Assembly: GCA_018433945.1 (NCBI GenBank)
Contig: JAHDQF010000088.1
Location: 1-35,051, forward strand
DNA from: Proteiniphilum sp.
GTDB taxonomy: Bacteria; Bacteroidota; Bacteroidia; Bacteroidales; Dysgonomonadaceae
DNA length: 35,051 nucleotides
Reading direction: 5' to 3'
Below are positions 1-14,669 of the stretch, one piece after another. The notes below the pieces were generated by a model, which saw nothing but the letters and a program-made list of their open reading frames with translations, ran no database searches and had not been told where the DNA came from. The stretch's first letter is position 1. Every line of letters starts with the position of its first letter. The position numbers and the translations under genes are program-made.

Positions 1-475
1 AGGCACAACAAGTAAAACCCCGCAAGGATCAAACGCAGAAGAAATGGAGAATCAAAACTGAAAAAGGAGATTATCGGTATTTCGACCAGGATAGCCTTAG
101 GGCTTCCGCTTTAAGGCAGAAACTCAAGAAAATCCCGATAGAGGAAACCAATATCAGGAACAACGTCGAAGCGAGCATTTTCCAATTAGGTTACCATTAT
201 CCCAACGACAAGAGCCGCTACAGGAGCCTTGCCAAGCATAAACTATGGGCTTATTCCCGCTCATTGTGGATAAACTTTGTAAGGATAGTGAAATATATCA
301 CGCAAATATGTCAAAGAGCACTTTTTGGGCAAAAATTGCCTCAATATATAGCTAAATTATGTTTCAATATGTATATTATTATAAATATATTCTTAGTCAA
401 TAAAAGTAATCACATTTTCCCGGCGAAACTGCGTTTTTCAGCAATTTGAAAAAACGGGGTTTTCAGAGGAGACTC
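1..475 (+). mobile_element. Right part of an insertion sequence next to the cas operon
   Basis: The transposase fragment ends at 449 and the sequence changes to AT-rich cas DNA by about 480. The right terminus probably lies between 450 and 480, where GGGGTTTTCAGAGGAGACTC is a candidate end sequence. The left end and its matching inverted repeat are outside the window, so neither the boundary nor a target-site duplication can be confirmed. Confidence 0.45.
3..449 (+). CDS. DDE-type transposase, C-terminal part (5' end outside the window)
   Basis: The reading frame is open from the window edge to a TGA at 447-449, giving 148 residues of a C-terminal fragment. It is rich in Lys, Arg and aromatic residues. 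The stretch NNVEASIFQLGYHY followed by SRYRSLAKHKLWAY resembles the C-terminal end of DDE transposases found in Bacteroidetes insertion sequences, where the Glu would be the last catalytic acid. I cannot assign the IS family; IS1182-like or IS5-like are guesses. The protein would cut and rejoin the ends of its own element. It ends only about 110 bases before the likely cas8b start, where cas6 usually lies in type I-B operons. Whether the transposase is intact cannot be judged from this window. Confidence 0.72.
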   Translation, partial: AQQVKPRKDQTQKKWRIKTEKGDYRYFDQDSLRASALRQKLKKIPIEETNIRNNVEASIFQLGYHYPNDKSRYRSLAKHKLWAYSRSLWINFVRIVKYITQICQRALFGQKLPQYIAKLCFNMYIIINIFLVNKSNHIFPAKLRFSAI

Positions 476-490
476 ATGTATTTTTTAATC

Positions 491-498
491 TATATTTG
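491..498 (+). promoter_or_regulatory. Candidate -7 element upstream of cas8b
   Basis: TATATTTG fits the Bacteroidetes -7 consensus TAnnTTTG. No TTTG lies about 19 bases upstream, so only half the signal is present. It sits at or just past the putative insertion-sequence end. The present cas8b promoter may therefore be partly formed by the element, or the original promoter may lie upstream of cas6 outside the window. Confidence 0.4.
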
Positions 499-563
499 TC
501 AAATCAAAAAGTTGCATTTGTGACTTGAATTCAGCATATATTATTTTAGAACACACCAAAAAG

Positions 564-2438
564 ATGATAAAGGAAATAGTAAATTTTGTAGAGCACTTAG
601 AAAAGAAAAGCCCCGAAATATTTTCAGAAGGACTTGAATTGAAAGAGGGAATTTATGTCTTTTTAGAAAAAGGAGGAGAAGAATTGGTAGTTAAGGAAGA
701 GAATATTTTTAAAGTGGGCAAGGATACTGAACGAAATCAATTATATGAAGAGTTTTTATCCTTGGCAACTAATACCGAAATGCTGAATGCTATGAAAAGT
801 TTCAATTCAGGACCTAAAATATATATAGCTATTGGATCGCCTTTCGGTATTGCATTGAATGGAAAAGCCTATAAAAAAAATGGTGAAAAAAAACTATTAG
901 ATGCAGCCGATGCTTATTTTAAAGCGGCACGAAATTATATGAATTCTGAAAACAAACAACATGAATTATGGTATGCCGAAATGAAGTCCTTTGTAAAAAC
1001 AAAAATGCTGAATTTCATAGCCAGTTACGTAGAAAATGAAAAAGTTAAGGACCAATTTATGTTTTATTTCTTTATGAAAGAACCCTCTTTGAAAGACTAT
1101 CAAGAAATTCAAACAAAATTTTTATCAGAAAAACTTTTCAATAAAGATAAATTCAATGTAAAAACTAAAAATGGGGAATTATTTGGTATATCAGATAATT
1201 TAAGCGGTTTCAACGATAATAAAGAGTTTCTGAAACACAAAACCGCACCAATAGAACTAAATTATAGGGTAAACGGAATAGAGGCGCAAAAACTGTTCAA
1301 TTTCTTTCAATTGCAACAAAAAAATAAAGTATTACCTAATCCTTTTCCTTTATTTGTTGATGAACAGGAATTAACAGAAGAAGCCGTAAAGTTCTACAAA
1401 AATAGCAATAAGAAATACGGACATAAAGAAATAGTTGAAGAACTAATAAAAAAGAAACAAGGTGATTTGCAAAATTATTTTCTGATATATTTCAATAACA
1501 AGGAAAAAGGAAGTCGGATAATTGATTTGGATTTTGTTTCTGTTTTTGAACATAAATTTAAACAACCAATAGTCATAAATAATCTGTTCAATATTAAAAA
1601 CAGAAAACTTGTTTTTTCTCAGATTGAAACGATTTTTGAATTTGAGAAAAGTCTTCTGCCTATATTATTTAACAATATAATGGTAAGTAATTTTAATGAT
1701 AGATTAGAGGGAAGGTATTTTTTTGATTTTAATAAAAAGAATAATCCCAAAGCCGGGTTTATTTTAAAATATATTGAAGATAACAAATACCATGTCTCAT
1801 ATAGTCAAACTCTTCAATATAGGAAAGCCTTTTTTGATTATATATATAAATCAAAAAGAAATGCAATTACTAGTAATATGTTTAATGATATATTAATAAA
1901 AACTATTATTGATGATATTAGACACGATGAACTTAAAGTAAGTGAAAAAACTAAAAAAGAATACCATTCAAAAGAAGATACAATCAAAGAAAAGCTAAAC
2001 ATTTGGTTTAGTTTATATAATTATTTTGCAAACTCAATAAAAAAAGAAGATATGGTAAATAAAACACAAGAGCTTTTTGAAAAGCTTAAAACAATTGCAA
2101 GTTCCGAAAACAATTCGGAATTTATTAAAAGCGATGATGAATTTGCCTTTGCAGCAGGTCAATTAATTCGTACCATTCTGAATAAAAGTGAATCGGGTGA
2201 ACGTTCGCATGCCCTACTTGAACCTTTCCTGCAAAAAACAGAATGTAGCAAATTGAAATTGGCAATTGCTCGTGCATTTGATACCTATAAACATGCTTTT
2301 AAATTTTATAAAGGCGATGCAAACCGCTACGAATTTGATAAAATTATGAGCGATGTAATGGGCTACGAAACAAAAACAAATATGAAAGATTTGCTGCCCA
2401 TGATTTTAGCGGGATATTTTTCTGAAACTATTTTCTAA
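564..2438 (+). CDS. cas8b: Type I-B Cascade large subunit Cas8b (Csh1-like)
   Basis: This 624-residue protein matches the Cas8b1/Csh1 (TM1802-like) large subunit in length, position and N-terminal style (MIKEIVNFVEHL, then ELKEGIYVFLEK). In type I-B Cascade the large subunit recognises the PAM and recruits Cas3. I chose ATG 564; a TTG at 525 extends the frame by 13 codons but lacks a ribosome site, and family members usually begin close to this motif. It is the first visible gene of the operon and is separated from cas7 by 65 bases without a clear promoter or terminator. The gene is very AT-rich with many poly-A tracts, unlike the chromosome to the right. No zinc-finger cysteine cluster is evident. 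Cas8 sequences diverge strongly, so gene order carries much of the assignment. Confidence 0.85.
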   Translation: MIKEIVNFVEHLEKKSPEIFSEGLELKEGIYVFLEKGGEELVVKEENIFKVGKDTERNQLYEEFLSLATNTEMLNAMKSFNSGPKIYIAIGSPFGIALNGKAYKKNGEKKLLDAADAYFKAARNYMNSENKQHELWYAEMKSFVKTKMLNFIASYVENEKVKDQFMFYFFMKEPSLKDYQEIQTKFLSEKLFNKDKFNVKTKNGELFGISDNLSGFNDNKEFLKHKTAPIELNYRVNGIEAQKLFNFFQLQQKNKVLPNPFPLFVDEQELTEEAVKFYKNSNKKYGHKEIVEELIKKKQGDLQNYFLIYFNNKEKGSRIIDLDFVSVFEHKFKQPIVINNLFNIKNRKLVFSQIETIFEFEKSLLPILFNNIMVSNFNDRLEGRYFFDFNKKNNPKAGFILKYIEDNKYHVSYSQTLQYRKAFFDYIYKSKRNAITSNMFNDILIKTIIDDIRHDELKVSEKTKKEYHSKEDTIKEKLNIWFSLYNYFANSIKKEDMVNKTQELFEKLKTIASSENNSEFIKSDDEFAFAAGQLIRTILNKSESGERSHALLEPFLQKTECSKLKLAIARAFDTYKHAFKFYKGDANRYEFDKIMSDVMGYETKTNMKDLLPMILAGYFSETIF

Positions 2439-2503
2439 AAAGAAAAAGAACCTGCACAATAACTCAAAAAACCTATTAAATAACAATTTAAAATAATAAT
2501 CCT

Positions 2504-3460
2504 ATGATACAATTTAAAAACAGAGTTTTCGGTGCAGCAATTGTAAAAGCTGTAAACTCAAACTACAATGCAGATTTTAGTGGTCAACCCCGAACGTTAC
2601 CAAATGGAACGGTATACGCAACTGATAAGGCATTCAAGTATACCATAAAAAATTATCTGAAAGACGTTTATACAGGCGAAAAAATATTTTATTTCAAAAG
2701 ATTAAACGATGATTTTAACCCTTTGACATTAGAAGACACTTATTTCAAAGTTTTTGAAAGAGATACTGCAAAAGATAAAAAAGTAGTCGCAAAAGATATT
2801 CTAAGTTGTATCGACATTCGTTTATTTGGTTCTACTTTTGCGTTAAGCGGAAAAAACGGGAATGTTGCATTGTCAATTCACGGTCCGGTTCAAATAAATC
2901 ATGGGGTAAATATATGGAAAGAAAATAATATTTTTTCTGAACAAATTATGTCTCCATTTAGAAATCCAGTTAAAAAAAAGCCGGGAGAAGATGGATCGGA
3001 AGAAGAGGATAAGCAGGCTACGACTTTAGGCCGTCAGTCAAAGTTAGAAGAAGGCCACTATTTGCATCATTTTTCGGTAAATCCCAAAAATTTAGAAGAA
3101 ATAGTTGCACTTGCCGGAGCCGATGCCGACATATTAACTGTAGAAGACATCAACAAACTTAAAGAAGCCATGCGCCGTGGGGCAACTTATTATGACAGTG
3201 CATCAAAAGCCGGCACAGAAAACGAATTTCTGATTTGGGTGCAACTAAAAGATGAATCAAAATTGGTATTACCCAATTTCAATACACTCATTTACATGAA
3301 AAGTGAAAAACAAGATGGAAAAGTGGTTCTGGATATGGCAAAATTGAGCGATGAATTAAAAAAACACGCTTCTGGAATAGAAAGCAGCGAAATTTATAGA
3401 AATGATAGTTCTATAGTGCTTGAAAATCAGCCGGAAGATGCCAAAATTTTCGGATTGTAA
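2504..3460 (+). CDS. cas7: Type I-B Cascade backbone subunit Cas7 (Csh2-like)
   Basis: This 318-residue protein has the start typical of Csh2-type Cas7 (MIQFKNRVFGAAIVKAVNSN), followed by the GxPR-like segment SGQPRTLPNG and, near residue 100, DIRLFGSTFA. These are features of the Cas7/Cst2/DevR RAMP family. Several Cas7 copies coat the crRNA spacer and form the spine of Cascade. Lysine-rich residues around 155-175 (KKKPGEDGSEEEDK) look like an exposed loop. In other type I-B operons cas5 follows directly. Here an 81-base promoter-bearing gap and two AbiE genes intervene before cas5. Composition matches cas8b. Confidence 0.92.
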   Translation: MIQFKNRVFGAAIVKAVNSNYNADFSGQPRTLPNGTVYATDKAFKYTIKNYLKDVYTGEKIFYFKRLNDDFNPLTLEDTYFKVFERDTAKDKKVVAKDILSCIDIRLFGSTFALSGKNGNVALSIHGPVQINHGVNIWKENNIFSEQIMSPFRNPVKKKPGEDGSEEEDKQATTLGRQSKLEEGHYLHHFSVNPKNLEEIVALAGADADILTVEDINKLKEAMRRGATYYDSASKAGTENEFLIWVQLKDESKLVLPNFNTLIYMKSEKQDGKVVLDMAKLSDELKKHASGIESSEIYRNDSSIVLENQPEDAKIFGL

Positions 3461-3467
3461 GTTTCAT

Positions 3468-3498
3468 TTTGACATTACTTTTTATAGTAGTATATTTG
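3468..3498 (+). promoter_or_regulatory. Internal promoter inside the cas operon, upstream of abiEi
   Basis: TTTG at 3468-3471, a 19-base spacer and TATATTTG at 3491-3498 match the Bacteroidetes housekeeping promoter (TTTG, N19-21, TAnnTTTG) at every defined position. The same arrangement with the same spacing occurs at the tRNA-Met gene of this window. Transcription would begin near 3505, about 37 bases before the abiEi ATG. With no terminator seen downstream and genes packed up to cas2, this promoter could express cas5, cas3, cas4, cas1 and cas2 as well as the toxin-antitoxin pair. Confidence 0.7.
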
Positions 3499-3518
3499 CA
3501 ATTTACTCATGGTATATT
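3490..3518 (+). promoter_or_regulatory. Candidate operator: GTATATT direct repeat over the abiE promoter
   Basis: GTATATT occurs at 3490-3496, overlapping the -7 element, and again at 3512-3518, 22 bases or about two helical turns later. AbiEi antitoxins are known to repress their own promoters by binding repeated sites. These copies are short and the DNA is AT-rich, so chance is a real alternative. Confidence 0.25.
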
Positions 3519-3541
3519 ATTATAAAAGGTAAAAAGATCTT

Positions 3542-4306
3542 ATGGAAAAAATTGAAGAGATATTATTAAAAGACATTACTTTCAATGGGCTCGATATTTT
3601 TACTAAATCAGAATTATTAAGTATATCTTCCTTAGACCAAATTTCAACAGAGAAAGCTTTGCGGAATTTGAATAAAAGAGACATTATTTACACAATAGAG
3701 CGAGGAAAATACTGTAAATTTGATTTTAGAAACGAATTGGTAATCGGCAGCTTTTTAAGTAGAGATGGTGGAATCGGGTATTGGACAGCCATGCACCATC
3801 ACGGCTTAACGGAACAGATTCCAAATACCATTTTTGTGCAAACATCTTATAAAAAGCAATCCAAACAAATATTCGGCGTAAAATATGTTTTTGTTCAGCT
3901 GATGAAAAAAAAACTTATAGGCTTTAAAAAAGTCGGATATGGAAATTACCAATATAATATTTCAGATGTTGAAAAGACAATTGTTGATTGTTTTGATTTA
4001 CCTAATTATGGTGGCGGTTATGCTGAGATAATTAAGGCTTTTAATAATGCTAATTTGAATGCTAAAAAAATGGTAAGATACTGCAGCGCAATTGATAACA
4101 TTGCTGTTACAAAACGATTAGCTTATTTATCTGAATTGCTGGGGAAGCCCAAAATGGATTATTTTATAAAATATGCTCAAACAAGAAAAAATAAGAAATA
4201 CAATTTATTTGAATCAGGGGGTAAAGAAAACGGTAAAACCAACAGCCGGTGGAATTTAATTTTAAATATGGAAGAGGACGAAATCATAGAAATAGCTAAT
4301 TCTTAA
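3542..4306 (+). CDS. abiEi: AbiEi-family antitoxin / autorepressor inside the cas operon
   Basis: The 254-residue protein starts with a winged-helix-like segment (about residues 15-60: FTKSELLSIS, EKALRNLNKRDIIYTIERGKY). This is followed by an AbiEi-type domain with YWTAMHHHGLTEQIP near 80-94 and the family signature ISDVEKTIVDCFDLPNYGGG at 140-159. AbiEi proteins are type IV antitoxins: they counter the AbiEii nucleotidyltransferase without binding it stably, and they repress the abiE promoter through the N-terminal domain. The downstream partner starts after a gap of only two bases. The gene has its own consensus promoter, although cas7 lies directly upstream in the same direction. Its AT-rich composition matches cas8b and cas5. 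A Rv2827c-like or other wHTH regulator is less likely because the paired toxin is adjacent. Confidence 0.88.
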   Translation: MEKIEEILLKDITFNGLDIFTKSELLSISSLDQISTEKALRNLNKRDIIYTIERGKYCKFDFRNELVIGSFLSRDGGIGYWTAMHHHGLTEQIPNTIFVQTSYKKQSKQIFGVKYVFVQLMKKKLIGFKKVGYGNYQYNISDVEKTIVDCFDLPNYGGGYAEIIKAFNNANLNAKKMVRYCSAIDNIAVTKRLAYLSELLGKPKMDYFIKYAQTRKNKKYNLFESGGKENGKTNSRWNLILNMEEDEIIEIANS

Positions 4307-4308
4307 AA

Positions 4309-5163
4309 ATGATAACACAAAAGGAAATTATAGAAATAGCCGAGCAAAAGCGTTTGCAAACCAAAATTATAGACAAAGATTGGGTTTTAGGTCATTTCTT
4401 AAATGCTATGTATTCTTTTGATGACGTGCGACAAAATTTTGTGTTCAAAGGCGGAACAGCACTTAAGAAATGCTATTTCCCTGATTACCGGTTTTCGGAG
4501 GACCTGGATTTTACTTTGTTGGATAAAAACTTTGTTATTAATGATAGTTTTATCAAAGAAATAATTAAAATCGCCACATTACAAAGTGGAATTCAATTTT
4601 ATTTTCAGAAACAAAAACTTCAAAAGTCTGAAGATGAAGAACAAGGTTATGAAATAAAAATTAAGTATTGGGGAGCTGATCACAAACCGAACCAACAGCC
4701 TTTACCTCCGTCGAGGTGGCAAACTGCCATTAAATTAGATATTAGCTTTTCCGAAAATATATTTGCCCGGCCTGAGCAAAAACAAATTTTTCATGGATAT
4801 TCCGACAGAACGAAAATTTCTGAGATAATTCTGGTTTATTCTCTGAATGAAATTATGGGAGAAAAATTACGCTCGTTGATACAGCGCAATAGACCGCGCG
4901 ATATTTACGACATTGATTATCTGAGCAAGCACTTGCCCCAGGAAAACTTCCCCTTAATAAAGGAAATACTTTACAGTAAAGCCAAAGATAAAAATATTAC
5001 GATTTCTGGCGTTTCCGATTTTGTAAACAATAAAAAAGAGCGTAGCAATAAACGTGCCTGGCAAAGTAGTTTGGGCGAACATCTACCAGTAGGCAAACTG
5101 CCTGATTTTGATAAAGTATATTCAGATATAGAACATTTTATTGAAAAAATTCTAAATTCGTAA
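4309..5163 (+). CDS. abiEii: AbiEii/AbiGii-family nucleotidyltransferase toxin inside the cas operon
   Basis: The 284-residue protein carries the full AbiEii (DUF1814) motif set: KGGTALKK at 47-54, SEDLDF at 63-68 with metal-binding Asp65 and Asp67, KLDIS at 142-146 with the third Asp, and EKLRSLIQR to RDIYDIDYL at 185-204. All catalytic positions look intact, so the toxin is probably active. Studied members are nucleotidyltransferases; MenT relatives modify the 3' ends of tRNAs and stop translation. The gene follows abiEi by two bases and is followed by cas5 after four bases (TAA, AACA, ATG), which implies linked translation with a Cascade gene. A role in guarding the CRISPR-Cas locus or acting as a back-up defence is inference from context. 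Confidence 0.9.
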   Translation: MITQKEIIEIAEQKRLQTKIIDKDWVLGHFLNAMYSFDDVRQNFVFKGGTALKKCYFPDYRFSEDLDFTLLDKNFVINDSFIKEIIKIATLQSGIQFYFQKQKLQKSEDEEQGYEIKIKYWGADHKPNQQPLPPSRWQTAIKLDISFSENIFARPEQKQIFHGYSDRTKISEIILVYSLNEIMGEKLRSLIQRNRPRDIYDIDYLSKHLPQENFPLIKEILYSKAKDKNITISGVSDFVNNKKERSNKRAWQSSLGEHLPVGKLPDFDKVYSDIEHFIEKILNS

Positions 5164-5167
5164 AACA

Positions 5168-5956
5168 ATGAAAAAACTAATTTCCATAGATATTTTTGCC
5201 GATTTCGGCATGTTGAAAAAACCCGATACCAATGAACCGGTTTATCTGACTTTTAATATGATGCATAAACCCGCTTTACTCGGGATTTTGGGTGCTATCA
5301 TTGGCGAAAGCGGCTTTAATGAAAAGGGCATTTTACCCGATTATTACCTGAAATTGAATGATCTGAAAGTTGGGATTCAACCCATAAATCATGAAAAAGG
5401 TAATTATCAAAAAACCGTGATAACTTACAACAATACTACCGGCATGGCTAGCAAAGAACAAGGCGGAAACCTTATGGTTACTGAACAAACTCTAATTGCT
5501 CCTGCTTACCGTTGTTATTTTTTGTTTGATATGGATAACAAAACCCACCAAAAAGCCGATGAAAACTTGTCAAAATATTACGCTGAATATTTGCCCTATT
5601 TGGGGAAAAATGAATTTTCGGTTTGGTGGGGAAATTATATGGTGTATAAGGATTTTTCTGAGTTTGAACCTATCGGAATTTTTAAAATCAATTCGATTTT
5701 TATAAAAGATGTTCCTTTAAAAGATTCAAAAGACAAAGACGCTTTGTTGTTTGATCCTGTTTTTGAAGATGCACCCGAAGGCTTTACTTTTTCTTATTTG
5801 GAAAGACTTCCTATTGGATATATGGATATTGGTGAAAATAATTATCAATACGAATACCGTAATTTTGCCTTTACGGATTGGTCTCTTAAAATGAATAACG
5901 AAAGTTCCAATTTATTGTTAAAAACTATAGAAAATGGCATCATTCAAGTCTTTTAA
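5168..5956 (+). CDS. cas5: Type I-B Cascade subunit Cas5
   Basis: This 262-residue RAMP protein begins with a beta strand typical of Cas5 (MKKLISIDIFADFGMLKKPD). It continues with a segment shared by Cas5b proteins, FNMMHKPALLGILGAIIGESGF, near residues 30-50. Cas5 caps the 5' handle of the crRNA in Cascade. The start lies four bases after the abiEii stop and the end overlaps cas3 by 23 bases, so cas5 expression is physically tied to both the toxin gene and cas3. I see no catalytic His pair of the type found in Cas5d, so it is unlikely to process pre-crRNA in place of the missing Cas6, though this cannot be excluded by reading alone. Confidence 0.9.
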   Translation: MKKLISIDIFADFGMLKKPDTNEPVYLTFNMMHKPALLGILGAIIGESGFNEKGILPDYYLKLNDLKVGIQPINHEKGNYQKTVITYNNTTGMASKEQGGNLMVTEQTLIAPAYRCYFLFDMDNKTHQKADENLSKYYAEYLPYLGKNEFSVWWGNYMVYKDFSEFEPIGIFKINSIFIKDVPLKDSKDKDALLFDPVFEDAPEGFTFSYLERLPIGYMDIGENNYQYEYRNFAFTDWSLKMNNESSNLLLKTIENGIIQVF

Positions 5957-8681
5957 TCAAATAAATGAAGAACAAAGCCCAATAATTAATTTTTTCGAGT
6001 CGAAAACTGATTTTTTAGCTCATACGCACTCTTTAAAAGAACCAGAAACCCTACACCAACATATAATTAAAGTCAAAAATTATTTTTTTCAACTTGTTGA
6101 AATTCACCATCTTGAATTTGTCATTGATGGGTTAATACAAAATATTTACTCTGAAAATGATAAAATTGGAAATTTTATAAAGGAACTTTTTTTCTTATCC
6201 ATTATTTTTCATGATTTTGGAAAAACAAATCCCAATTTTCAGGTTCAGCGCATGAATAATAAGCTTTTTGAACAAAATAATTCAATAAAACTTGGTTACG
6301 AACATTCATTTATCAGTGCTTATTTTTTTCTGAATTTTTGTGTTGAAAGAATTTCAAAATCAAATTTTTCTGCACACGAAAAAAATCTTGCTTACATGTA
6401 TTCTTTTCTTTTTTCGATTCCTATGATTAAGCATCATTCAAGTTCCTTGGAAAAGAGTTACGATTTTTCGGAAGAGAAAATCGAAAGCATTCACTATTTG
6501 ACAGAAGTTATGCAAATAAGTATTACAAAAGAACAAATTCAGAAATTAATCAATTACGAAAAATCAGATGACGATAATAGTTTGAAAAATGTTTTTGAAA
6601 ATATTATTCCGGTAAATTTCGACTACTTTCCCCTTTTTGCACTCTTAAAACTCAACTATTCATTACTTACGGCTTCCGATTATTTGGCCACTTCGGATTA
6701 TATGAACGATTTGAAGTTGGAAACCAAAGAAGATTTTGGATTGCTTACATCTGAATTGAAAAAACGATTAATTCATGATTTCGACAATAATTCTAACACA
6801 TCGTGGAATGGCGAATTAATTTCCAATACGGAAAAATATTTATCAAAAAGTCTTGATGAATTAAATGAAAAAAACAAAGATAACTTAAACTTCATTCGTC
6901 AGAAAATGGGTGCCGAAGTGCTTGCCAATATTGAAAAACACAAAAACGAAAAGGTTTTTTATATTGAAGCACCAACAGGTGGAGGCAAAACGAATATGTC
7001 GATGATTGCCCTGCGCAAAATGTTGGAACTGTACCCCGAAATAAATAAAGTTTTTTATGTTTTTCCGTTTACTACTTTAGTAACTCAAACAGCTAAAGCT
7101 ATTAAAGAAACTTTTCAACTTGACGATAATGACATTGCACAAATTCATTCAAAATCGGGTTTTCAGGAAAAAGAATATGATAACGAAGCAGATGCTAAAT
7201 ACGGTAAAGAAAAACGCAACCAGATTGACAATCTTTTTGTAAATTATCCCTTTACTTTGATGACCCACATTAAATTTTTTGATGTACTGAAGTCAAATAA
7301 AAAAGATACGAATTATCTTTTGCACCGTTTGGCTAATTCAGTCGTAATTATCGACGAGTTGCAAGCTTACAACCCTGAACATTGGGACAAAATAAAATAT
7401 TTTATTGCCAATTATGCCGAACTGTTCAACATTCGTTTCATAATCATGTCGGCCACTTTACCCAAAATTGATGAAATTGAACTGTCGGATTATAAACCAA
7501 AAAAATTTGTTTCGCTTATTGAAAATGCCAAAAATTATTTACAGAATCCAAATTTTGCACAAAGAGTTGTAATAAAAACCGATTTATTAGACCTAAAAAT
7601 AGAATTAGAAGAATTGGCAAACATCGTATTCGAAAAGTCGAAATACTATGCTAAAAACAGAACTGATGAGTTTAAGGGAAGTGTTTATACCATAATCGAG
7701 TTTATTTTCAAGAAATCGGCAAGCAATTTTTACGATATAGTTTTTAAACGAAATGATTTTTTCGATGAAATATTTGTGCTTTCGGGAACAATTCTCGAAC
7801 CGCGAAGAAAATACATCATCGAATATCTAAAAGACGAACTGAACCGCAAAAAGAAAATTCTGCTTATTACCACACAAGTAGTTGAAGCCGGTGTGGATAT
7901 TGATATGGATTTGGGGTTTAAAAATCAGTCGCTTATAGACAGTGACGAACAATTGGCCGGACGAATAAACCGAAACGCAAATAAAGAGAATTGTGAGTTG
8001 TATTTGTTCAAACACGACAAGCCAAAATCAATTTACGGCGTAGATTTAAGATATGAGGTAACTGAAAAGCAAATAAAATCGGATGAAGTTAAACAAATTT
8101 TAACAGAGAAAGATTTTAAGCGGCTATATGATAGGGTTTTTCGAGAAATTTTCAAAACAAATAATTCCGCTTATAAAAAAGGAATTGGCGAATATCTCGA
8201 TAATTTTAAACGAATAGATTTTAGAGGCATTCACCAAGATTTCAAATTAATTGAAAATAGTAATGCTACTATTTTTGTTCCGCTGGATATTGACATAAAT
8301 TGTTATGGCAGCACCAAAAATTTTTCAATAAAAGAACAAAACTTCATCAAAGAGCATAATTGTTTAACTAACGAAAACAAAGTCTCGGGTGAAAAAATAT
8401 GGGAATTGTATGATTCATACACGAAGGATTTTTCCAAAAAGTTTTCCATAGAAAATAAAATACTAAATGGCATTATGTCCAAATTTGTATTTTCTATTTT
8501 TATGAAAAAAATAAATGATTTGTACCCGTTCATTGAAAATCCGCCAACATCCGAAAAAAAAACGATTCAACAATATTTTAAACTAAATAAAAAACGACTG
8601 GACGAGATTTACTCTGAAGAATCAGGTATAAATGAAAAACATTTGACAGAAATATCAAAATCTACTTACGAATTTATCTGA
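5934..8681 (+). CDS. cas3: Cas3 nuclease-helicase (HD domain fused to DExH helicase)
   Basis: The 915-residue protein has an N-terminal HD nuclease and a superfamily 2 helicase in one chain. HD signatures are His41/His43, the His93-Asp94 pair in IFHDFGKTNPNF, EHS at 123-125 and KHHSS at 166-170. Helicase motifs are APTGGGKT (346-353, Walker A), IIDELQAYNP (472-481, motif II with DELQ), SATLP (506-510), TTQVVEAGVDIDMDLGF (646-662, motif V) and QLAGRINRNAN (673-683, motif VI). Cas3 is recruited to the R-loop made by Cascade, then unwinds and degrades the target. All key motifs look intact. The ATG at 5934 lies inside the end of cas5, and cas4 starts one base after the cas3 stop. This is the most AT-rich gene of the operon. 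Confidence 0.97.
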   Translation: MASFKSFNQINEEQSPIINFFESKTDFLAHTHSLKEPETLHQHIIKVKNYFFQLVEIHHLEFVIDGLIQNIYSENDKIGNFIKELFFLSIIFHDFGKTNPNFQVQRMNNKLFEQNNSIKLGYEHSFISAYFFLNFCVERISKSNFSAHEKNLAYMYSFLFSIPMIKHHSSSLEKSYDFSEEKIESIHYLTEVMQISITKEQIQKLINYEKSDDDNSLKNVFENIIPVNFDYFPLFALLKLNYSLLTASDYLATSDYMNDLKLETKEDFGLLTSELKKRLIHDFDNNSNTSWNGELISNTEKYLSKSLDELNEKNKDNLNFIRQKMGAEVLANIEKHKNEKVFYIEAPTGGGKTNMSMIALRKMLELYPEINKVFYVFPFTTLVTQTAKAIKETFQLDDNDIAQIHSKSGFQEKEYDNEADAKYGKEKRNQIDNLFVNYPFTLMTHIKFFDVLKSNKKDTNYLLHRLANSVVIIDELQAYNPEHWDKIKYFIANYAELFNIRFIIMSATLPKIDEIELSDYKPKKFVSLIENAKNYLQNPNFAQRVVIKTDLLDLKIELEELANIVFEKSKYYAKNRTDEFKGSVYTIIEFIFKKSASNFYDIVFKRNDFFDEIFVLSGTILEPRRKYIIEYLKDELNRKKKILLITTQVVEAGVDIDMDLGFKNQSLIDSDEQLAGRINRNANKENCELYLFKHDKPKSIYGVDLRYEVTEKQIKSDEVKQILTEKDFKRLYDRVFREIFKTNNSAYKKGIGEYLDNFKRIDFRGIHQDFKLIENSNATIFVPLDIDINCYGSTKNFSIKEQNFIKEHNCLTNENKVSGEKIWELYDSYTKDFSKKFSIENKILNGIMSKFVFSIFMKKINDLYPFIENPPTSEKKTIQQYFKLNKKRLDEIYSEESGINEKHLTEISKSTYEFI

Positions 8682-8682
8682 T

Positions 8683-9195
8683 ATGCAAATCACAGGAATG
8701 CACTTTAATTATTATCTTATTTGTCATCGCAAGCTATGGCTCTTTGCCAATGGGATCACGATGGAGTCCACATCCGATTTGGTTTATGAGGGGAAACTCT
8801 TGCATGAGATATCTTATCCCCGACGAAGTGAGAAATACCAAGAGATTGCCATTGATGGAATAAAAATTGATTTTTATGATGTAAAAAATAAGGTAGTCCA
8901 TGAAATCAAAAAGTCTGATAAGCATGAAGATGCGCATGTATGGCAGGTGAAGTATTATCTTTACGTGCTGGATCAAAATGGAGTGCATGGAGTTACGGGA
9001 ATACTTGAATACCCCAAATTGCACAAAACGGAGGAAGTAATATTGTCCGACTCGGATAAAGATGAAATTTGTAAAATGATTGCCAATATTGAAGCCATTG
9101 TGCACAGTGATCAATGTCCGGAACGTATTCGAAAATCGAGATGTAAAAACTGCAGTTACTTTGATTTTTGTTGGAGTGGGGAGGAGGAAGAATGA
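8683..9195 (+). CDS. cas4: CRISPR adaptation nuclease Cas4
   Basis: The 170-residue protein has the Cas4 layout. Cys14 (in YLICHRKLW) and a C-terminal trio, Cys154, Cys157 and Cys163 (RCKNCSYFDFCW), form the [4Fe-4S] site. The RecB-like nuclease core shows IDFYD at 62-66, HEIKKSDK at 73-80 and QVKYYLYVL at 88-96. Cas4 trims prespacers and selects for the PAM together with Cas1-Cas2. It starts one base after the cas3 stop and ends in an ATGA overlap with cas1. GC content rises visibly at this gene compared with cas3, so the adaptation module may have a different origin from the interference genes. Confidence 0.95.
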   Translation: MQITGMHFNYYLICHRKLWLFANGITMESTSDLVYEGKLLHEISYPRRSEKYQEIAIDGIKIDFYDVKNKVVHEIKKSDKHEDAHVWQVKYYLYVLDQNGVHGVTGILEYPKLHKTEEVILSDSDKDEICKMIANIEAIVHSDQCPERIRKSRCKNCSYFDFCWSGEEEE

Positions 9196-10196
9196 AAAAA
9201 ACATACTATCTTTTTAATCCTGGAAGGTTACAACGTAGAGATAATACGCTGAAATTTACTCCCTATGATGAAAATGGCAATGAGCAGGAGCCACGTTATC
9301 TGCCTGTGGAGAATATAGAAGAATTATATTGTTTTGGAAATCTGGATGCAAATTCGGCATTGTATAATTTTTTAGGGACTCTTCAGATTCCTATCCATTT
9401 CTTCGATTATTATGAGAATTATACCGGTTCTTTTATGCCTCGGGAATCACTGATATCCGGAAAGATGCTGATCTCACAGGTCAAGGCGCAGCAAAACAAA
9501 CAAAAACGTATGGTATTGGCACAACGCATACTCGAAGGTGCAGGATATAATATGTTGAAAAATCTCAACTATTATAACAACAGAGGGAAAGACCTCGAAC
9601 CGATTATCGAAACCATTGAAGCATTGATTCAGAAAATAGAGTCAACAACCGCCATCGATGAGTTGATGGGCATTGAAGGGAATATCCGTAAAAACTATTA
9701 CGATGCGTTCGAGCTTATTATTAATGATTTCAGTATGGACGGACGAAGCTATCGGCCGCCCAGGAACGAAGTAAATGCCCTGATTTCTTTTGGGAATATG
9801 ATGTGTTACAGCCAGTGCTTAAGATCAATACATCAAACGCAGTTGAATCCGGTAATTAGCTTCCTTCATGAGCCGGGAGAACGACGATTTTCATTATCTC
9901 TTGATATCGCAGAAATATTTAAACCGCTTCTTGTTGACCGGGTACTGTTTAAAGTGCTGAATAAGAAAATGATTCAGGCAAATCATTTTGAGGTAAAACT
10001 GAATAGTGTGGTTTTGAAAGAAGCCGGGCGTAAAACATTTGTGCAGGCTTTCGAAGATCGTTTAAATGAAACCATCAAACACCGTACCCTATCCCGATCG
10101 GTCAGTTATAAGCATCTGATAAAGCTGGAATGTTACAAACTCCAGAAACATTTGCTTGGAATAGAAGAATATCAGCCTTTTAAAATGTGGTGGTGA
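9192..10196 (+). CDS. cas1: CRISPR integrase Cas1 (type I-B)
   Basis: This 334-residue protein starts MKKTYYLFNPGRLQRRDNTLKF, typical of type I-B Cas1. I chose ATG 9192 because it overlaps the cas4 stop as ATGA and has a strong GGGGAGGAGGAA ribosome site just upstream; a TTG at 9168 would lie inside that context. Expected metal-site residues are Glu162 (MGIEGNIRKNYYD), His226 (SFLHEPGERR) and acids in DIAEIF at 238-243. Cas1 with Cas2 integrates prespacers at the leader end of the array. The array lies about 490 bases downstream. The cas2 start overlaps its stop. Confidence 0.97.
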   Translation: MKKTYYLFNPGRLQRRDNTLKFTPYDENGNEQEPRYLPVENIEELYCFGNLDANSALYNFLGTLQIPIHFFDYYENYTGSFMPRESLISGKMLISQVKAQQNKQKRMVLAQRILEGAGYNMLKNLNYYNNRGKDLEPIIETIEALIQKIESTTAIDELMGIEGNIRKNYYDAFELIINDFSMDGRSYRPPRNEVNALISFGNMMCYSQCLRSIHQTQLNPVISFLHEPGERRFSLSLDIAEIFKPLLVDRVLFKVLNKKMIQANHFEVKLNSVVLKEAGRKTFVQAFEDRLNETIKHRTLSRSVSYKHLIKLECYKLQKHLLGIEEYQPFKMWW

Positions 10197-10459
10197 TGTA
10201 TGTTATTGCTGTTTATGATGTGGGTGAGAAAAGAGTAGGGAAAATGCTAAAGCTTTTCAGACGATATCTGAATTGGATACAAAATTCAGTTTTTGAGGGA
10301 GAAATAACCGAGGTCAGGCTGATGGAATTAAAGATTAAAGCGAGTAAGATAATGGATGATGAAAATGACAGTTTGATAATTTTTAAAACCCGCCAGGAGA
10401 AATGGCTCGAAAAAGAAATTGTGGGGGTAGAAAGACAGAATTTGAGCAATTTTTTATAA
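10196..10459 (+). CDS. cas2: CRISPR adaptation protein Cas2
   Basis: An 87-residue protein beginning MYVIAVYDVGEKRVGKMLKLFRRY, a standard Cas2 ferredoxin-like start with the conserved Asp8 after the first strand. ATG 10196 shares its A with the cas1 TGA. GTG codons at 10187, 10190 and 10193 would add three residues but are less likely. Cas2 forms the centre of the Cas1-Cas2 integration complex. It is the last cas gene, and the CRISPR leader begins directly after it. Confidence 0.95.
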   Translation: MYVIAVYDVGEKRVGKMLKLFRRYLNWIQNSVFEGEITEVRLMELKIKASKIMDDENDSLIIFKTRQEKWLEKEIVGVERQNLSNFL

Positions 10460-10566
10460 CAATGAATTGTCGATACTTGTAAAATCAATGGGTTTGGAGA
10501 CAAAGTTTCAATAAAATAATTTTTAAGCGCTCTTTGACATATTGATAATAAGTGACATATGTATAG

Positions 10567-10614
10567 TCGTCGTTCTGGCGGTCAAAATACATTTAATGAG
10601 AACGACGATTTTTT
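10567..10614 (+). terminator. Terminator-like hairpin of the cas operon in the leader
   Basis: TCGTCGTTCT at 10567-10576 is exactly complementary to AGAACGACGA at 10599-10608 and is followed by six T residues. The 22-base loop is long for an intrinsic terminator, but the perfect 10-bp stem with a T tract fits. It would stop cas operon transcription before the array promoter. Confidence 0.6.
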
Positions 10615-10627
10615 CAGTAAAAAAAAC

Positions 10628-10635
10628 TATTTTTG
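10628..10635 (+). promoter_or_regulatory. Candidate -7 element for pre-crRNA transcription
   Basis: TATTTTTG fits TAnnTTTG and lies about 50 bases before repeat 1, giving a start near 10642. The upstream region has a T run at 10609-10614 rather than a clear TTTG at the usual distance, so only the -7 half is certain. Position after the hairpin suits an array promoter. Confidence 0.5.
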
Positions 10636-10685
10636 TGGTCAGTAACTCATTGTTTATGAAACATTTTTTTTAGGCGCTCGTACGG

Positions 10686-12477
10686 CCTTCAATCGCACCA
10701 TACTGGAATTGAAATTCGATAGTCAGCACACCGGAAAGGTTGGCCCCGGATCCTTCAATCGCACCATACTGGAATTGAAATTTATTACCCGCTGGTCGTG
10801 CGTGTTGTGTGCCACCCCTTCAATCGCACCATACTGGAATTGAAATAAAAATCAGCCCAAAACCGTTGCTCCGCTAATACCCTTCAATCGCACCATACTG
10901 GAATTGAAATGGTTGACGACGCTGGCCAGCTTGCTGGCGCTCCTTCCTTCAATCGCACCATACTGGAATTGAAATCACTATGACTAATCCCTGAGTCCGT
11001 GATGCTAATACCTTCAATCGCACCATACTGGAATTGAAATGTTGATCTTTTGCCGCTCCCTGTATCCCGGAGATCCTTCAATCGCACCATACTGGAATTG
11101 AAATGGGATATATACTCAAGCCTGTTAAAAACTTATCCGCCTTCAATCGCACCATACTGGAATTGAAATGGATAAACTTCTCCTTTGCTTTCACGTCATC
11201 GCCCAGCCTTCAATCGCACCATACTGGAATTGAAATGAGGACTTTTCTGATGCTCTCAACGTGCAACTTGCCTTCAATCGCACCATACTGGAATTGAAAT
11301 ATGAGTTACGGCAAGGGTAAGGGTTTTGTGTCGGGCCTTCAATCGCACCATACTGGAATTGAAATTTCAAAATTTCAAAGGCGACTTCGTCGCAATTTTC
11401 CTTCAATCGCACCATACTGGAATTGAAATTTCAAATTGTTCCACGAAGTGCACAGGCTGATGATCCTTCAATCGCACCATACTGGAATTGAAATTAGGAT
11501 AGAAAACAGCCAAATAAACATCAATCCAGCCTTCAATCGCACCATACTGGAATTGAAATTTGTCTGTTATGTTTGTGCCGTTGCCTGCAACGGCTTCCTT
11601 CAATCGCACCATACTGGAATTGAAATAAGTATGAATTTACAGAGTACGACAACGGGAAAACCTTCAATCGCACCATACTGGAATTGAAATTTGATTCCAT
11701 AAACGTATCGCTTCCCGGATGGTGCCCTTCAATCGCACCATACTGGAATTGAAATGATGGAATTTCGGTGTAAATAATCCGGCTTCTTTCCTTCAATCGC
11801 ACCATACTGGAATTGAAATTACCCAGCTGTGCGTACTGTTTTTGCAGGTCTGATAACCTTCAATCGCACCATACTGGAATTGAAATGGAGAGCTTATTAC
11901 AGGTCGCAAAGTAATATCCGAACCTTCAATCGCACCATACTGGAATTGAAATTGCTTATTACGGGATGTTAAATTTCGTGAATGGGAACCTTCAATCGCA
12001 CCATACTGGAATTGAAATTAGATCTTACAAAGCTCCTGCAGGAAGCGCTGAATGCCTTCAATCGCACCATACTGGAATTGAAATATTCGCGAACAAAGGG
12101 GGTAGCCAGTAGCAAGCTGACCTTCAATCGCACCATACTGGAATTGAAATCAGGTAGTAGTTAGCCGGCTTTGAGGGTAGAGTTGCCTTCAATCGCACCA
12201 TACTGGAATTGAAATTCGGGTAGTTATCGTCAGCTTACAAGGCCGACGACCTTCAATCGCACCATACTGGAATTGAAATGTTATCGTCTTTGCCATGTTT
12301 TCAGCGGCATCGAGCCCTTCAATCGCACCATACTGGAATTGAAATATGAACAATGGGCTTTTTCATTTCGATACATGGGTAAACCTTCAATCGCACCATA
12401 CTGGAATCAATAATTACTACCGATTTCGAGCTCGTCGATCTTTTTGTCCTTCAATCGCATCATACTGGAATCAATAA
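10686..12477 (+). CRISPR. Type I-B CRISPR array, 28 repeats and 27 spacers
   Basis: A 30-base repeat begins CCTTCAATCGCACC and ends CTGGAATTGAAAT; the last eight bases ATTGAAAT are the usual type I-B crRNA handle. Repeats start at 10686, 10752, 10817, 10881, 10946, 11011, 11075, 11140, 11207, 11271, 11336, 11400, 11465, 11530, 11597, 11661, 11726, 11790, 11857, 11923, 11989, 12055, 12121, 12186, 12250, 12316, 12384 and 12448. Spacers are 34-38 bases and all different by eye. Repeats 1-26 appear identical; 27 and 28 have a changed 3' end. Uniform repeats and complete cas1, cas2 and cas4 suggest recent activity. The handle orientation, the adjacent cas genes and the decayed far end all place the leader on the left. 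No spacer was seen to match another part of the window, but this was checked only by eye. Confidence 0.98.
12384..12477 (+). repeat. Degenerate leader-distal repeats 27 and 28
   Basis: Both final repeats (12384-12413 and 12448-12477) end GGAATCAATAA instead of GGAATTGAAAT, and repeat 28 has a further C to T change (CGCATCATAC). The two share the same altered handle, ATCAATAA, which points to one ancestral change followed by duplication or to an older array end. Spacer 27, between them, would receive the altered handle if processed. A further decayed copy may start near 12512 at the same 34-base spacing (GTTCCAATCATAC). Confidence 0.9.
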
Positions 12478-13362: not shown

Positions 13363-13534
13363 AAGGTTTTATGGAAGATTCAGTATGTAGATGAAGGAAA
13401 AGTGATTGATTACACCATCCGAAGGGTTTCATGGTGGAGCCGGAATGAAGCGGCGGGAAAGTTACTGGTGATTGATGGCACAATCAAAAGGTTTTTTATG
13501 GAGGACCCGGAATCGGATGCAGATTTTCTTAAAA
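13363..13534 (+). repeat. Imperfect tandem repeat in the gap before amrS
   Basis: The 424-base gap 13171-13594 holds the nitroreductase promoter on its left and three diverged copies of a motif of the form AAGGTTTTATGGAGGA at 13363, 13422 and 13488. The last two copies also share GTGATTGAT (13402 and 13468), a 66-base period. A frame open from 13363 to 13545 crosses the repeats as a 22-residue period (VIDYTIRR, VIDGTIKR) but lacks an ATG start and a clear ribosome site. Coding function is doubtful; it may be a decayed gene or a noncoding repeat. Confidence 0.4.
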
Positions 13535-13542
13535 AAAATGCT

Positions 13543-13550
13543 TAAATTTG
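13543..13550 (+). promoter_or_regulatory. Candidate -7 element for amrS
   Basis: TAAATTTG fits TAnnTTTG, giving a transcript start near 13557. It has no good TTTG upstream. It argues that translation starts downstream of 13557, supporting the ATG at 13595 over in-frame codons from 13472 on. Confidence 0.4.
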
Positions 13551-13594
13551 GAATCCAATGTGGATGTTACCGAATGGGTACAAAAATGGGAGCA

Positions 13595-14629
13595 ATGAAA
13601 AAAACTGATTCTGCGGATATGTACATGCCGGCACGTTATCAGGAAAAAAAAGCCGATGGTACGGTCCGTTGCCTTCTTTGTCCGCAGGTGTGCTTGTTGC
13701 AGGAGAACGAAACGGGGTTGTGCCACACGAGAAAAAACCTGAACGGAACGCTCTATACCATGGCCTACGGCAATCCGTGCTCGGTAAGCATGGACCCGAT
13801 TGAAAAAAAACCGCTGTTCCACTTCCATCCGGGCGAAAATATCCTGTCGCTGGCTACCGCGGGATGTAACTTTCATTGTGCCAATTGCCAGAACTGGCAA
13901 ATATCACAGGCATCACCGGAAGAGTTGCCCCATTACCGGCTCACTCCGCATGAAATAATCGATATGGCGCTGTCGTACCACACCGGACTCATCGCTTTTA
14001 CCTACACGGAACCAACGGTTTTCTACGAATATATGTACGACATTGCGGTGCTGGCACACGAAAAAGAGATGAAGACGGTGATGGTCTCAAATGGTTACAT
14101 CAACCGTGAACCGTTGCTCGACCTTTGCCCTTATCTCGATGCTGCCAATATCGATTTAAAATGTTTCGACAATGCATCCTATAAACAGCTGACTTCGGGA
14201 AACCTTCATCCGGTGCTGAGAACCTTGAAAACGCTAAAGGAGAATAATATCTGGCTCGAGATCACCAGCTTATTGATTCCCGGATACAACGACAGCGCCG
14301 AAATGATCGGGAAGATGTGTGCGTGGCTGGTGGAAAACGGCTTTTCCGATACGCCGCTGCATTTCAGCCGCTTCTTTCCCACATACCGGCTGACCGACCG
14401 GCCTGCAACGCCCGAAAAGTCGTTGCTGCAGGCAAAGATGATCGCGGAACACGCGGGAATAAAATACGTCTATATCGGAAATTTGCCGCATCTTCGGGGC
14501 GAAAACACGTTTTGCCCCCATTGCAACAACCTGCTGGTGGAACGACAAGGGTTCAACGTGGTAACAAACCGGTTGACAGGCGGAAAATGCAACGTTTGCG
14601 GCGAAAAAATTGCCGGTGTCTGGGAGTGA
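13595..14629 (+). CDS. amrS: AmmeMemoRadiSam system radical SAM enzyme AmrS
   Basis: The 344-residue protein carries the radical SAM cluster motif CNFHCANC at 91-98 (Cys91, Cys95, Cys98), in the setting LATAGCNFHCANCQNW. Before it are N-terminal cysteines in VRCLLCPQVC and GLCHTR, the pattern of AmrS/PflA-like activases. The C-terminus has two more Cys pairs (TFCPHCNN and GKCNVCGE), suggesting an extra metal or Fe-S site. The substrate is unknown; the family was named from its genomic co-occurrence with AMMECR1 and Memo proteins, both encoded convergently just to the right. I chose ATG 13595 from family length and the promoter element at 13543; the frame is open upstream to 13472. The 40-base gap to the convergent fusion gene has no clear terminator. 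Confidence 0.93.
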   Translation: MKKTDSADMYMPARYQEKKADGTVRCLLCPQVCLLQENETGLCHTRKNLNGTLYTMAYGNPCSVSMDPIEKKPLFHFHPGENILSLATAGCNFHCANCQNWQISQASPEELPHYRLTPHEIIDMALSYHTGLIAFTYTEPTVFYEYMYDIAVLAHEKEMKTVMVSNGYINREPLLDLCPYLDAANIDLKCFDNASYKQLTSGNLHPVLRTLKTLKENNIWLEITSLLIPGYNDSAEMIGKMCAWLVENGFSDTPLHFSRFFPTYRLTDRPATPEKSLLQAKMIAEHAGIKYVYIGNLPHLRGENTFCPHCNNLLVERQGFNVVTNRLTGGKCNVCGEKIAGVWE

Positions 14630-14669
14630 GTTCACGATGCCCTGAACTACCTCAAGTACCGGTCCGATT

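Follow-up and report, generated by a model that had tools for sequence, protein, structure and literature searches.

AbiE of Streptococcus agalactiae is a two-gene toxin–antitoxin system in which the toxin AbiEii carries four motifs (I–IV) and the abiE promoter, upstream of the antitoxin gene abiEi, holds two inverted repeats as operator (PMC3985639, accessible portion of the text). CreTA (type VIII) is a toxin–antitoxin module that is physically tied to cas loci, with possible addiction; it consists of RNA only, and Cascade represses its toxin via ectopic repeats (PMC9458426, accessible portion). In addition, a deep clustering survey suggested that numerous toxin–antitoxin modules near loci of clustered regularly interspaced short palindromic repeats (CRISPR) could safeguard cas genes (PMC10910872, accessible portion). 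Here, we describe an AbiE pair within the type I-B cas operon of a Proteiniphilum sp.; the analysed stretch of DNA (35,051 nucleotides, referred to as the window) is the entire contig C49 of a 2.3-Mb assembly that is 92% complete. The pair (positions 3542–5163) shares with the streptococcal system the order of the two genes, the AbiEii motifs and an inverted-repeat pair upstream of abiEi, in a layout similar to that of the published operator, but it differs in its location inside a cas operon directly next to cas5 and in its lineage, most members of which are linked to CRISPR loci, and its activity is a prediction. As in CreTA, a toxin–antitoxin module is tied to a cas locus and addiction is possible; however, toxin and antitoxin are both proteins here, repression appears to be autonomous and the search for an ectopic repeat was negative. 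Related pairs recur in CRISPR operons of related bacteria, which suggests that the association is not merely accidental, and the AbiE arrangement is a recurrent and co-oriented association that is probably maintained.

The operon is encoded on the plus strand in the order cas8b–cas7–abiEi–abiEii–cas5–cas3–cas4–cas1–cas2 and is followed by a CRISPR array (Table 1). The first-pass annotation of this DNA had claimed an intact AbiEi/AbiEii pair between cas7 and cas5, with all catalytic motifs of AbiEii and with gaps of two bases to the toxin gene and four bases to cas5. All of this was borne out: the open reading frames (ORFs) and the Pfam and PADLOC matches agree, and the ORF coordinates give 2 bases between abiEi and abiEii and 4 bases between abiEii and cas5 (position 5168). 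The PADLOC match of AbiEi covers model positions 6–251 of 252, the C-terminal Pfam model AbiEi_1 scored 20.6 bits, which is below its cut-off of 22.2, and NCBIfam profiles gave no name for either protein. In AbiE systems, the antitoxin gene lies just upstream of the toxin gene, and its product has a winged helix–turn–helix at the N-terminus and an antitoxin domain at the C-terminus. All four AbiEii motifs described for the streptococcal toxin (PMC3985639, accessible portion) are present in the window protein, including GG-x15-DLD with Arg, EKLRSLIQR as the Lys region of motif III, and RDxxD. An alignment of 24 AbiEii (without the split copy of G016 and the partial copy of G250) showed no variation at the key residues of these motifs. 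When compared by sequence with solved structures, AbiEii gave weak matches only (AbiGII at 2e-4 and one other), and AbiEi had no match in PDB.

Among 393 genomes of the same order, close AbiEii homologs (E ≤ 1e-50) were detected in 18, and in 14 of these 18 they are located within or next to cas genes, two of the 14 at cas remnants. Thus, in the sampled order, the cassette lineage is mostly located in or beside type I cas operons. No cas genes were seen beside the close AbiEii in G269, G719, G022 and G037, three of these four being located at contig edges. The genome search proposed in the first-pass annotation recovered the order cas7–AbiE–cas5 at nine loci: the window (G000), G085, G180, G265, G017/L027, G016, G709, L022 and L033. 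The first seven belong to the 393-genome set, and L022, L027 and L033 come from a scan of named genomes, in which L027 has the same gene coordinates as G017, so that both were counted as one. In five genomes (G214, G013, G734, G145, G233), AbiE is located on the cas3/cas4 side; in G145, it follows cas3 and one small gene and no cas4 comes after it, and in G233, two other ORFs of at least 90 amino acids per side separate it from the cas genes. The named-genome scan yielded 20 loci in total, among them L034 (cas3–AbiE–cas4) and L035, with AbiE behind the cas5a gene of a type I-A operon; at the remaining 15, no window-like cas genes were seen. All linked pairs are co-oriented with the cas genes. 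With this recurrence, a single chance insertion, the alternative offered in the first-pass annotation, is contradicted: the order recurs in several lineages, and cas linkage clusters on the AbiE tree. Viewed from the cas side, cas7 matches were found in 18 of 295 genomes, 13 of them near full length, and in these 13 the cas7/cas5 junction holds AbiE (6), an IS200-like transposase (3) or no gene (4: G005, G106, G137 and G214, the AbiE of the latter being located further down). The distance between cas7 and cas5 without an insert is 1 bp in G106 and G137 and 55 bp in G005.

When sampling was widened to the class and the phylum (395 genomes each, E ≤ 1e-60), close AbiEii were detected at ten places outside the order. 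None of these had window-like cas genes in the stretches examined, and two of the ten are on contigs of less than 7 kb. Similarly, 13 of the 16 weaker AbiEii matches in the order set (1e-20 to 1e-40) were examined and showed no window-like cas genes. Absence of cas genes was judged by tblastn with the cas proteins of the window and partly of a few relatives, and by PADLOC on 86 proteins (at least 130 amino acids) that are encoded no further than about 3 kb from 24 unlinked AbiE loci; weakly similar cas genes could be missed in this way. Among the best 25 of 344 families, these neighbours match the PADLOC models of pAgo, Qat, Druantia and type I restriction–modification, and therefore this AbiE family also occurs near other defence genes. 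Searches for empty sites within the family covered 1 and 11 genomes, which is too few. A phage-borne origin of the pair was considered and rejected: the scan of viral contigs, which reaches close relatives only, gave no AbiEii match. The plasmid relatives stayed below 60% identity (best 34.9% among the 30 of 111 matches listed).

The AbiE tree was calculated from concatenated AbiEi and AbiEii (42 leaves, unrooted; without L026, L028, L032, L036–L041, L061 and the weaker matches except five outgroups). A clade of 15 leaves with a support of 97 contains the window pair, 13 other cas-linked or cas-remnant pairs and G269, and L034 and L035 form a separate pair (support 100). On this tree, cas linkage changes 3 times versus a mean of 13.3 and a minimum of 9 in 1000 shuffles; these and the following shuffle statistics are descriptive only, sampling bias being ignored. 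Over 1000 bootstrap trees, we counted 2 (11 trees), 3 (758 trees) or 4 (231 trees) changes versus a shuffled minimum of 8, and when the seven unlinked loci at or near contig edges were recounted as linked, there were 5 changes, again versus a shuffled minimum of 8. In contrast, the slot within the operon changes 6 times on the AbiE tree versus 6.0 times in shuffles. Linkage is clustered but the slot is not, and therefore the lineage keeps to CRISPR loci and not to one position. The cas8b/cas7/cas5 tree and the AbiE tree of the ten shared loci rejected each other in approximately unbiased (AU) tests (p = 2e-4 and 5e-7; G016 represented by AbiEi only, L022 without cas8b and part of cas7), and thus AbiE was inserted repeatedly or exchanged. 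When G017 is compared with the window, AbiEii is 43%, cas7 77% and the first part of cas5 85% identical. A recombination point is likely to lie inside the G017 operon, judging from the alignments (L027:6796–8350): its cas5 is 85% identical to that of the window over residues 1–157 and 37% over residues 208–262, and cas3 is about 37% identical.

In the 81-bp gap between cas7 and abiEi, an inverted repeat overlaps a promoter-like element, TTTG-N19-TATATTTG, that follows the promoter consensus of Bacteroidota. Only 1 of 200 shuffles of the gap equalled this dyad, and its exact pattern occurs at a single site in the genome, the AbiE promoter. The layout recurs among the relatives: TAnnTTTG, the −7 part, was detected in 13 of 18 AbiE gaps versus 2.1 expected from shuffles, and in 10 of 16 loci no more than 5% of shuffles were as good as the upstream dyad (test set without G709 and G734; one passing locus, G269, is not cas-linked). 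Inspection by eye placed the −7 element between the dyad arms or overlapping them in most of these ten, and L022 is the clearest relative, its −7 element being surrounded by a perfect 19/19 dyad. At all nine cas7–AbiE–cas5 loci, the distance from abiEii to cas5 is −4 to +7 bp, and the gap between cas7 and AbiEi measures 81–220 bp (with an AbiEi start of our own choice for L022). Most likely, AbiEi acts as a repressor at its own promoter, with the inverted repeat as its binding site. Since AbiEii runs into cas5 and a terminator would not fit between them, transcription of the downstream cas genes is expected to start at the AbiE promoter as well.

Two genomes carry AbiE at the remains of cas operons. 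In G199 (L049:3170–5340), AbiEi and AbiEii are open between the end of cas7 and a frameshifted start of cas5, with mutS adjoining, and no cas7 match was found in this genome, which is 94% complete. Three unsaturated comparisons of the G199 pair with G180 and G265 gave ratios of nonsynonymous to synonymous substitution (dN/dS) of 0.04–0.09, the dS values of 0.7–2.8 making these estimates rough. In G250, what is left of the cas4 start contains a stop codon (L055:9605–9724, minus strand) and is located two ORFs downstream of an AbiEii that is cut by the contig edge. If AbiE is an anti-loss module, survivors such as G199 are expected; if the toxin needs Cascade for its silence and is still active, no such survivor is expected. 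Together with the relatives that have a different gene in the slot, the remnants in G199 and G250 make the idea of operon protection testable by comparison.

Our preferred explanation, which we hold with about even confidence, is that the pair forms an autonomous, self-repressing AbiE (type IV) cassette that acts as an anti-loss module in the cas operon and whose promoter also serves the downstream cas genes. Such a cassette would comprise promoter/operator, abiEi and abiEii and would act autonomously. AbiEi would bind the inverted repeat, shut its own promoter and also neutralise AbiEii, a predicted nucleotidyltransferase whose toxicity it would restrain; in AbiE systems, such neutralisation proceeds without contact between toxin and antitoxin. 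Deletion of the operon would remove the antitoxin as well and would be counter-selected (addiction), and by read-through the AbiE promoter would feed cas5–cas3–cas4–cas1–cas2. Several observations weigh against this explanation. The IS200-like transposases occupy the same slot in 3 of the 13 cas7 loci (G099, G216, G051), and this slot may merely tolerate insertions. One of these genomes, G099, is the neighbour of the window on the cas tree and has the transposase in place of AbiE, so that AbiE was either lost or never present in that slot. In G016, the AbiEii reading frame is split beside the cas genes, AbiEi and its dyad being intact; the split may be real or an assembly error, but the toxin can apparently be lost. 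The upstream dyad is no better than shuffles in 6 of 16 loci (G180, G265, G013, G214, G233, G199), and the clade that joins the G017/L033 pair (support 100) to the other type I-B-linked pairs has a support of only 50. Moreover, the low dN/dS of G199 may mostly reflect the time before cas loss, and all loci come from genome assemblies, many of them fragmentary.

Some of these data would also fit a tolerated passenger, for which cassettes enter permissive cas junctions by recombination or defence-island shuffling and persist by selfish addiction, without benefit for or coupling to CRISPR. The transposases in the same slot, the slot changes on the AbiE tree, which equal those of shuffles (6 vs. 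6.0), the conflict between AbiE and cas trees and the split toxin gene of G016 all speak for this explanation; we consider it unlikely on balance, however, since cas linkage itself is strongly clustered on the AbiE tree, the linked pairs are co-oriented with the cas genes and the ten close AbiEii places outside the order showed no window-like cas genes. Alternatively, AbiE may be a second line of defence by abortive infection, which halts growth if CRISPR immunity fails or is inhibited, its position in the operon ensuring co-expression. AbiE can confer phage resistance in other bacteria (PMC3985639, accessible portion), and the neighbours of unlinked relatives match pAgo, Qat, Druantia and type I restriction–modification models, as stated above for the best 25 of 344 families. 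However, no trigger was identified, the promoter-like element and the dyad suggest independent control, and AbiE is open without the operon in G199, which makes this scenario rather improbable. Still less probable is the idea that AbiEi mainly regulates the downstream cas genes, an internal promoter being repressed and loss of AbiEi freeing the toxin and cas5–cas3–cas4–cas1–cas2 together. The promoter-like element within the dyad, the 4-bp junction without room for a terminator before cas5 and the intact AbiEi and dyad of G016 next to a split toxin frame are consistent with it, but the exact dyad pattern, the one form searched for, was found in the genome only at the AbiE promoter and at neither cas8b nor the array, and G106 and G137, which lack AbiE, run cas7 directly into cas5. 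A more far-reaching version, which we regard as speculative and unlikely, combines both functions: a protein toxin–antitoxin lineage dedicated to CRISPR would serve as guardian and internal switch of type I cas operons. AbiEi would repress the promoter that it shares with cas5–cas3–cas4–cas1–cas2, and a shortage of AbiEi, such as might follow when an infection stops protein synthesis of the host, would free the toxin and at the same time boost the interference and adaptation genes, whereas deletion of the operon would be punished.

The first-pass annotation had regarded the pair as a protein-based analogue of CreTA. The anti-loss part of this idea is plausible and fits G199, but the part that has Cascade hold the toxin is not supported, and we rate a guard of this kind, with a toxin repressed by Cascade and freed on cas loss, as highly improbable. 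CreTA modules protect CRISPR-Cas loci via Cascade repression of the toxin (PMC9458426, accessible portion). At positions 1–10660 of the window, every 30-mer differed from the array repeat by more than 11 mismatches, and no repeat-like sequence of at least 63% identity was present outside the array; since CreTA repeats are known to be degenerate (same source), a weak ectopic repeat could be missed by these searches. The array spacers matched positions 3401–5300 with 17–22 of 34–38 letters (no shuffle control). At these thresholds, no degenerate ectopic repeat with a spacer matching the toxin promoter was found at positions 1–10660, and the toxin is not an RNA, AbiEii being a protein of 284 amino acids. 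The dyad at the AbiE promoter, whose exact pattern is unique in the genome, and the G199 pair, open without its operon, also speak against repression by Cascade. The only plausible mini-CRISPR among the AbiE loci scanned is that of G734 (L112, about 9160–9265, minus strand; loci without an array in the stretch examined were scanned with the window repeat only), where two degenerate repeats (24/30 and 20/30) flank a 36-nt spacer between cas3 and AbiE, just upstream of AbiE. This arrangement could suit a CreTA or CreR role in G734, but no seed match to the spacer is present in the AbiE promoter of this genome, and the best overall match of the spacer within 16 kb (24) is no better than those of shuffled spacers (mean 23.1, maximum 25). 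As a target of this spacer, we considered a 10-nt seed match (24/36 overall) that lies some 2 kb upstream of a gene whose position suggests cas6; it is not located at a cas or AbiE promoter and was treated as chance. Taken together, Cascade-dependent repression of the window AbiE is unsupported. A lone repeat-like sequence (L066:14813–14841, 24/29 to its own repeat) was seen outside the G106 array, at a distance of about 350 bp; this locus has no AbiE.

CRISPR loci are known to have RNA guards, but our searches of the open-licence literature yielded no description of a recurrent protein toxin–antitoxin pair within cas operons, although an entry in a supplementary table is possible. The deep clustering survey shares the idea of safeguarding by toxin–antitoxin modules, but a term search did not find AbiE in the accessible portion of its main text (PMC10910872). 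In the accessible portions of the other papers compared, which also included PMC12988326, AbiE appears in a reference only (PMC12737573) or not at all (PMC12669027). If the pair protects the operon, it would be a second, independent answer to the question of how costly CRISPR systems are kept, and if AbiEi also controls the downstream cas genes, the antitoxin would couple abortive infection to adaptive immunity.

Table 1. Positions of the AbiE pair, its putative control elements and the surrounding type I-B CRISPR-cas genes in the window
Feature	Position	Strand	Remarks
Promoter-like element, Bacteroidota type, TTTG-N19-TATATTTG	3468..3498	+	upstream of abiEi
Inverted repeat, putative AbiEi operator	3475..3532	.	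arms 3475–3494 and 3513–3532, 17/20 pairs, 18 bases apart
abiEi, antitoxin, putative autorepressor, 254 aa	3542..4306	+	PADLOC AbiEi 1.1e-81
abiEii, predicted nucleotidyltransferase toxin, 284 aa	4309..5163	+	Pfam PF08843 4.7e-39; PADLOC AbiEii 7.3e-84
cas8b	525..2438	+	PADLOC Cas8b 2.2e-79; start codon as listed TTG
cas7 (Csh2-like)	2504..3460	+	Pfam Cas_Cas7 6.6e-38
cas5b	5168..5956	+	TIGR02592 1.8e-28, above cut-off; start 4 bp past abiEii stop
cas3 (HD + helicase)	5934..8681	+	PADLOC Cas3b 1.5e-231; TIGR01587 and TIGR01596 above cut-off
cas4	8683..9195	+	Pfam 1.2e-53
cas1b	9192..10196	+	TIGR03641 8.8e-139
cas2	10187..10459	+	Pfam 5.9e-21
CRISPR array	10686..12477	+	28 repeats of 30 nt; last two degenerate on 3' side

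The cas genes that flank the pair were matched by PADLOC as Cas8b, Cas7, Cas5b, Cas3b, Cas4b, Cas1b and Cas2b, and a type I-B gene set with its array is thus present, Cas7 scoring below the NCBIfam I-B cut-off. A relative of cas6 is encoded on another contig of the same genome (G000:C15:11596–12357), 1.3 kb from the contig end, and an apparent end of a transposase gene was seen by eye at window positions 1–290; because of these two observations, a mobile element may separate cas6 from cas8b.

Other genes were also observed within related cas operons. The transposases of the cas7/cas5 junction are IS200-like Y1 proteins of 153–155 amino acids (L062:5807–6274, L063:9055–9516, L064:3296–3757), of the RAYT type, and no AbiE is present there. 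They occupy the same junction of related I-B operons as AbiE but represent a transposase and not a toxin–antitoxin pair. L034 carries a PD-(D/E)XK nuclease-like gene at its cas4–cas1 junction (L034:9360–9830), and in L063 (2449–5459) PRiA4_ORF3-like and SWIM-domain proteins are encoded between cas3 and cas4. Finally, a similar gene set is located near the CRISPR locus in both the window (13472–16139) and G734 (L123:18205–19757), and it resembles the AmmeMemoRadiSam set.

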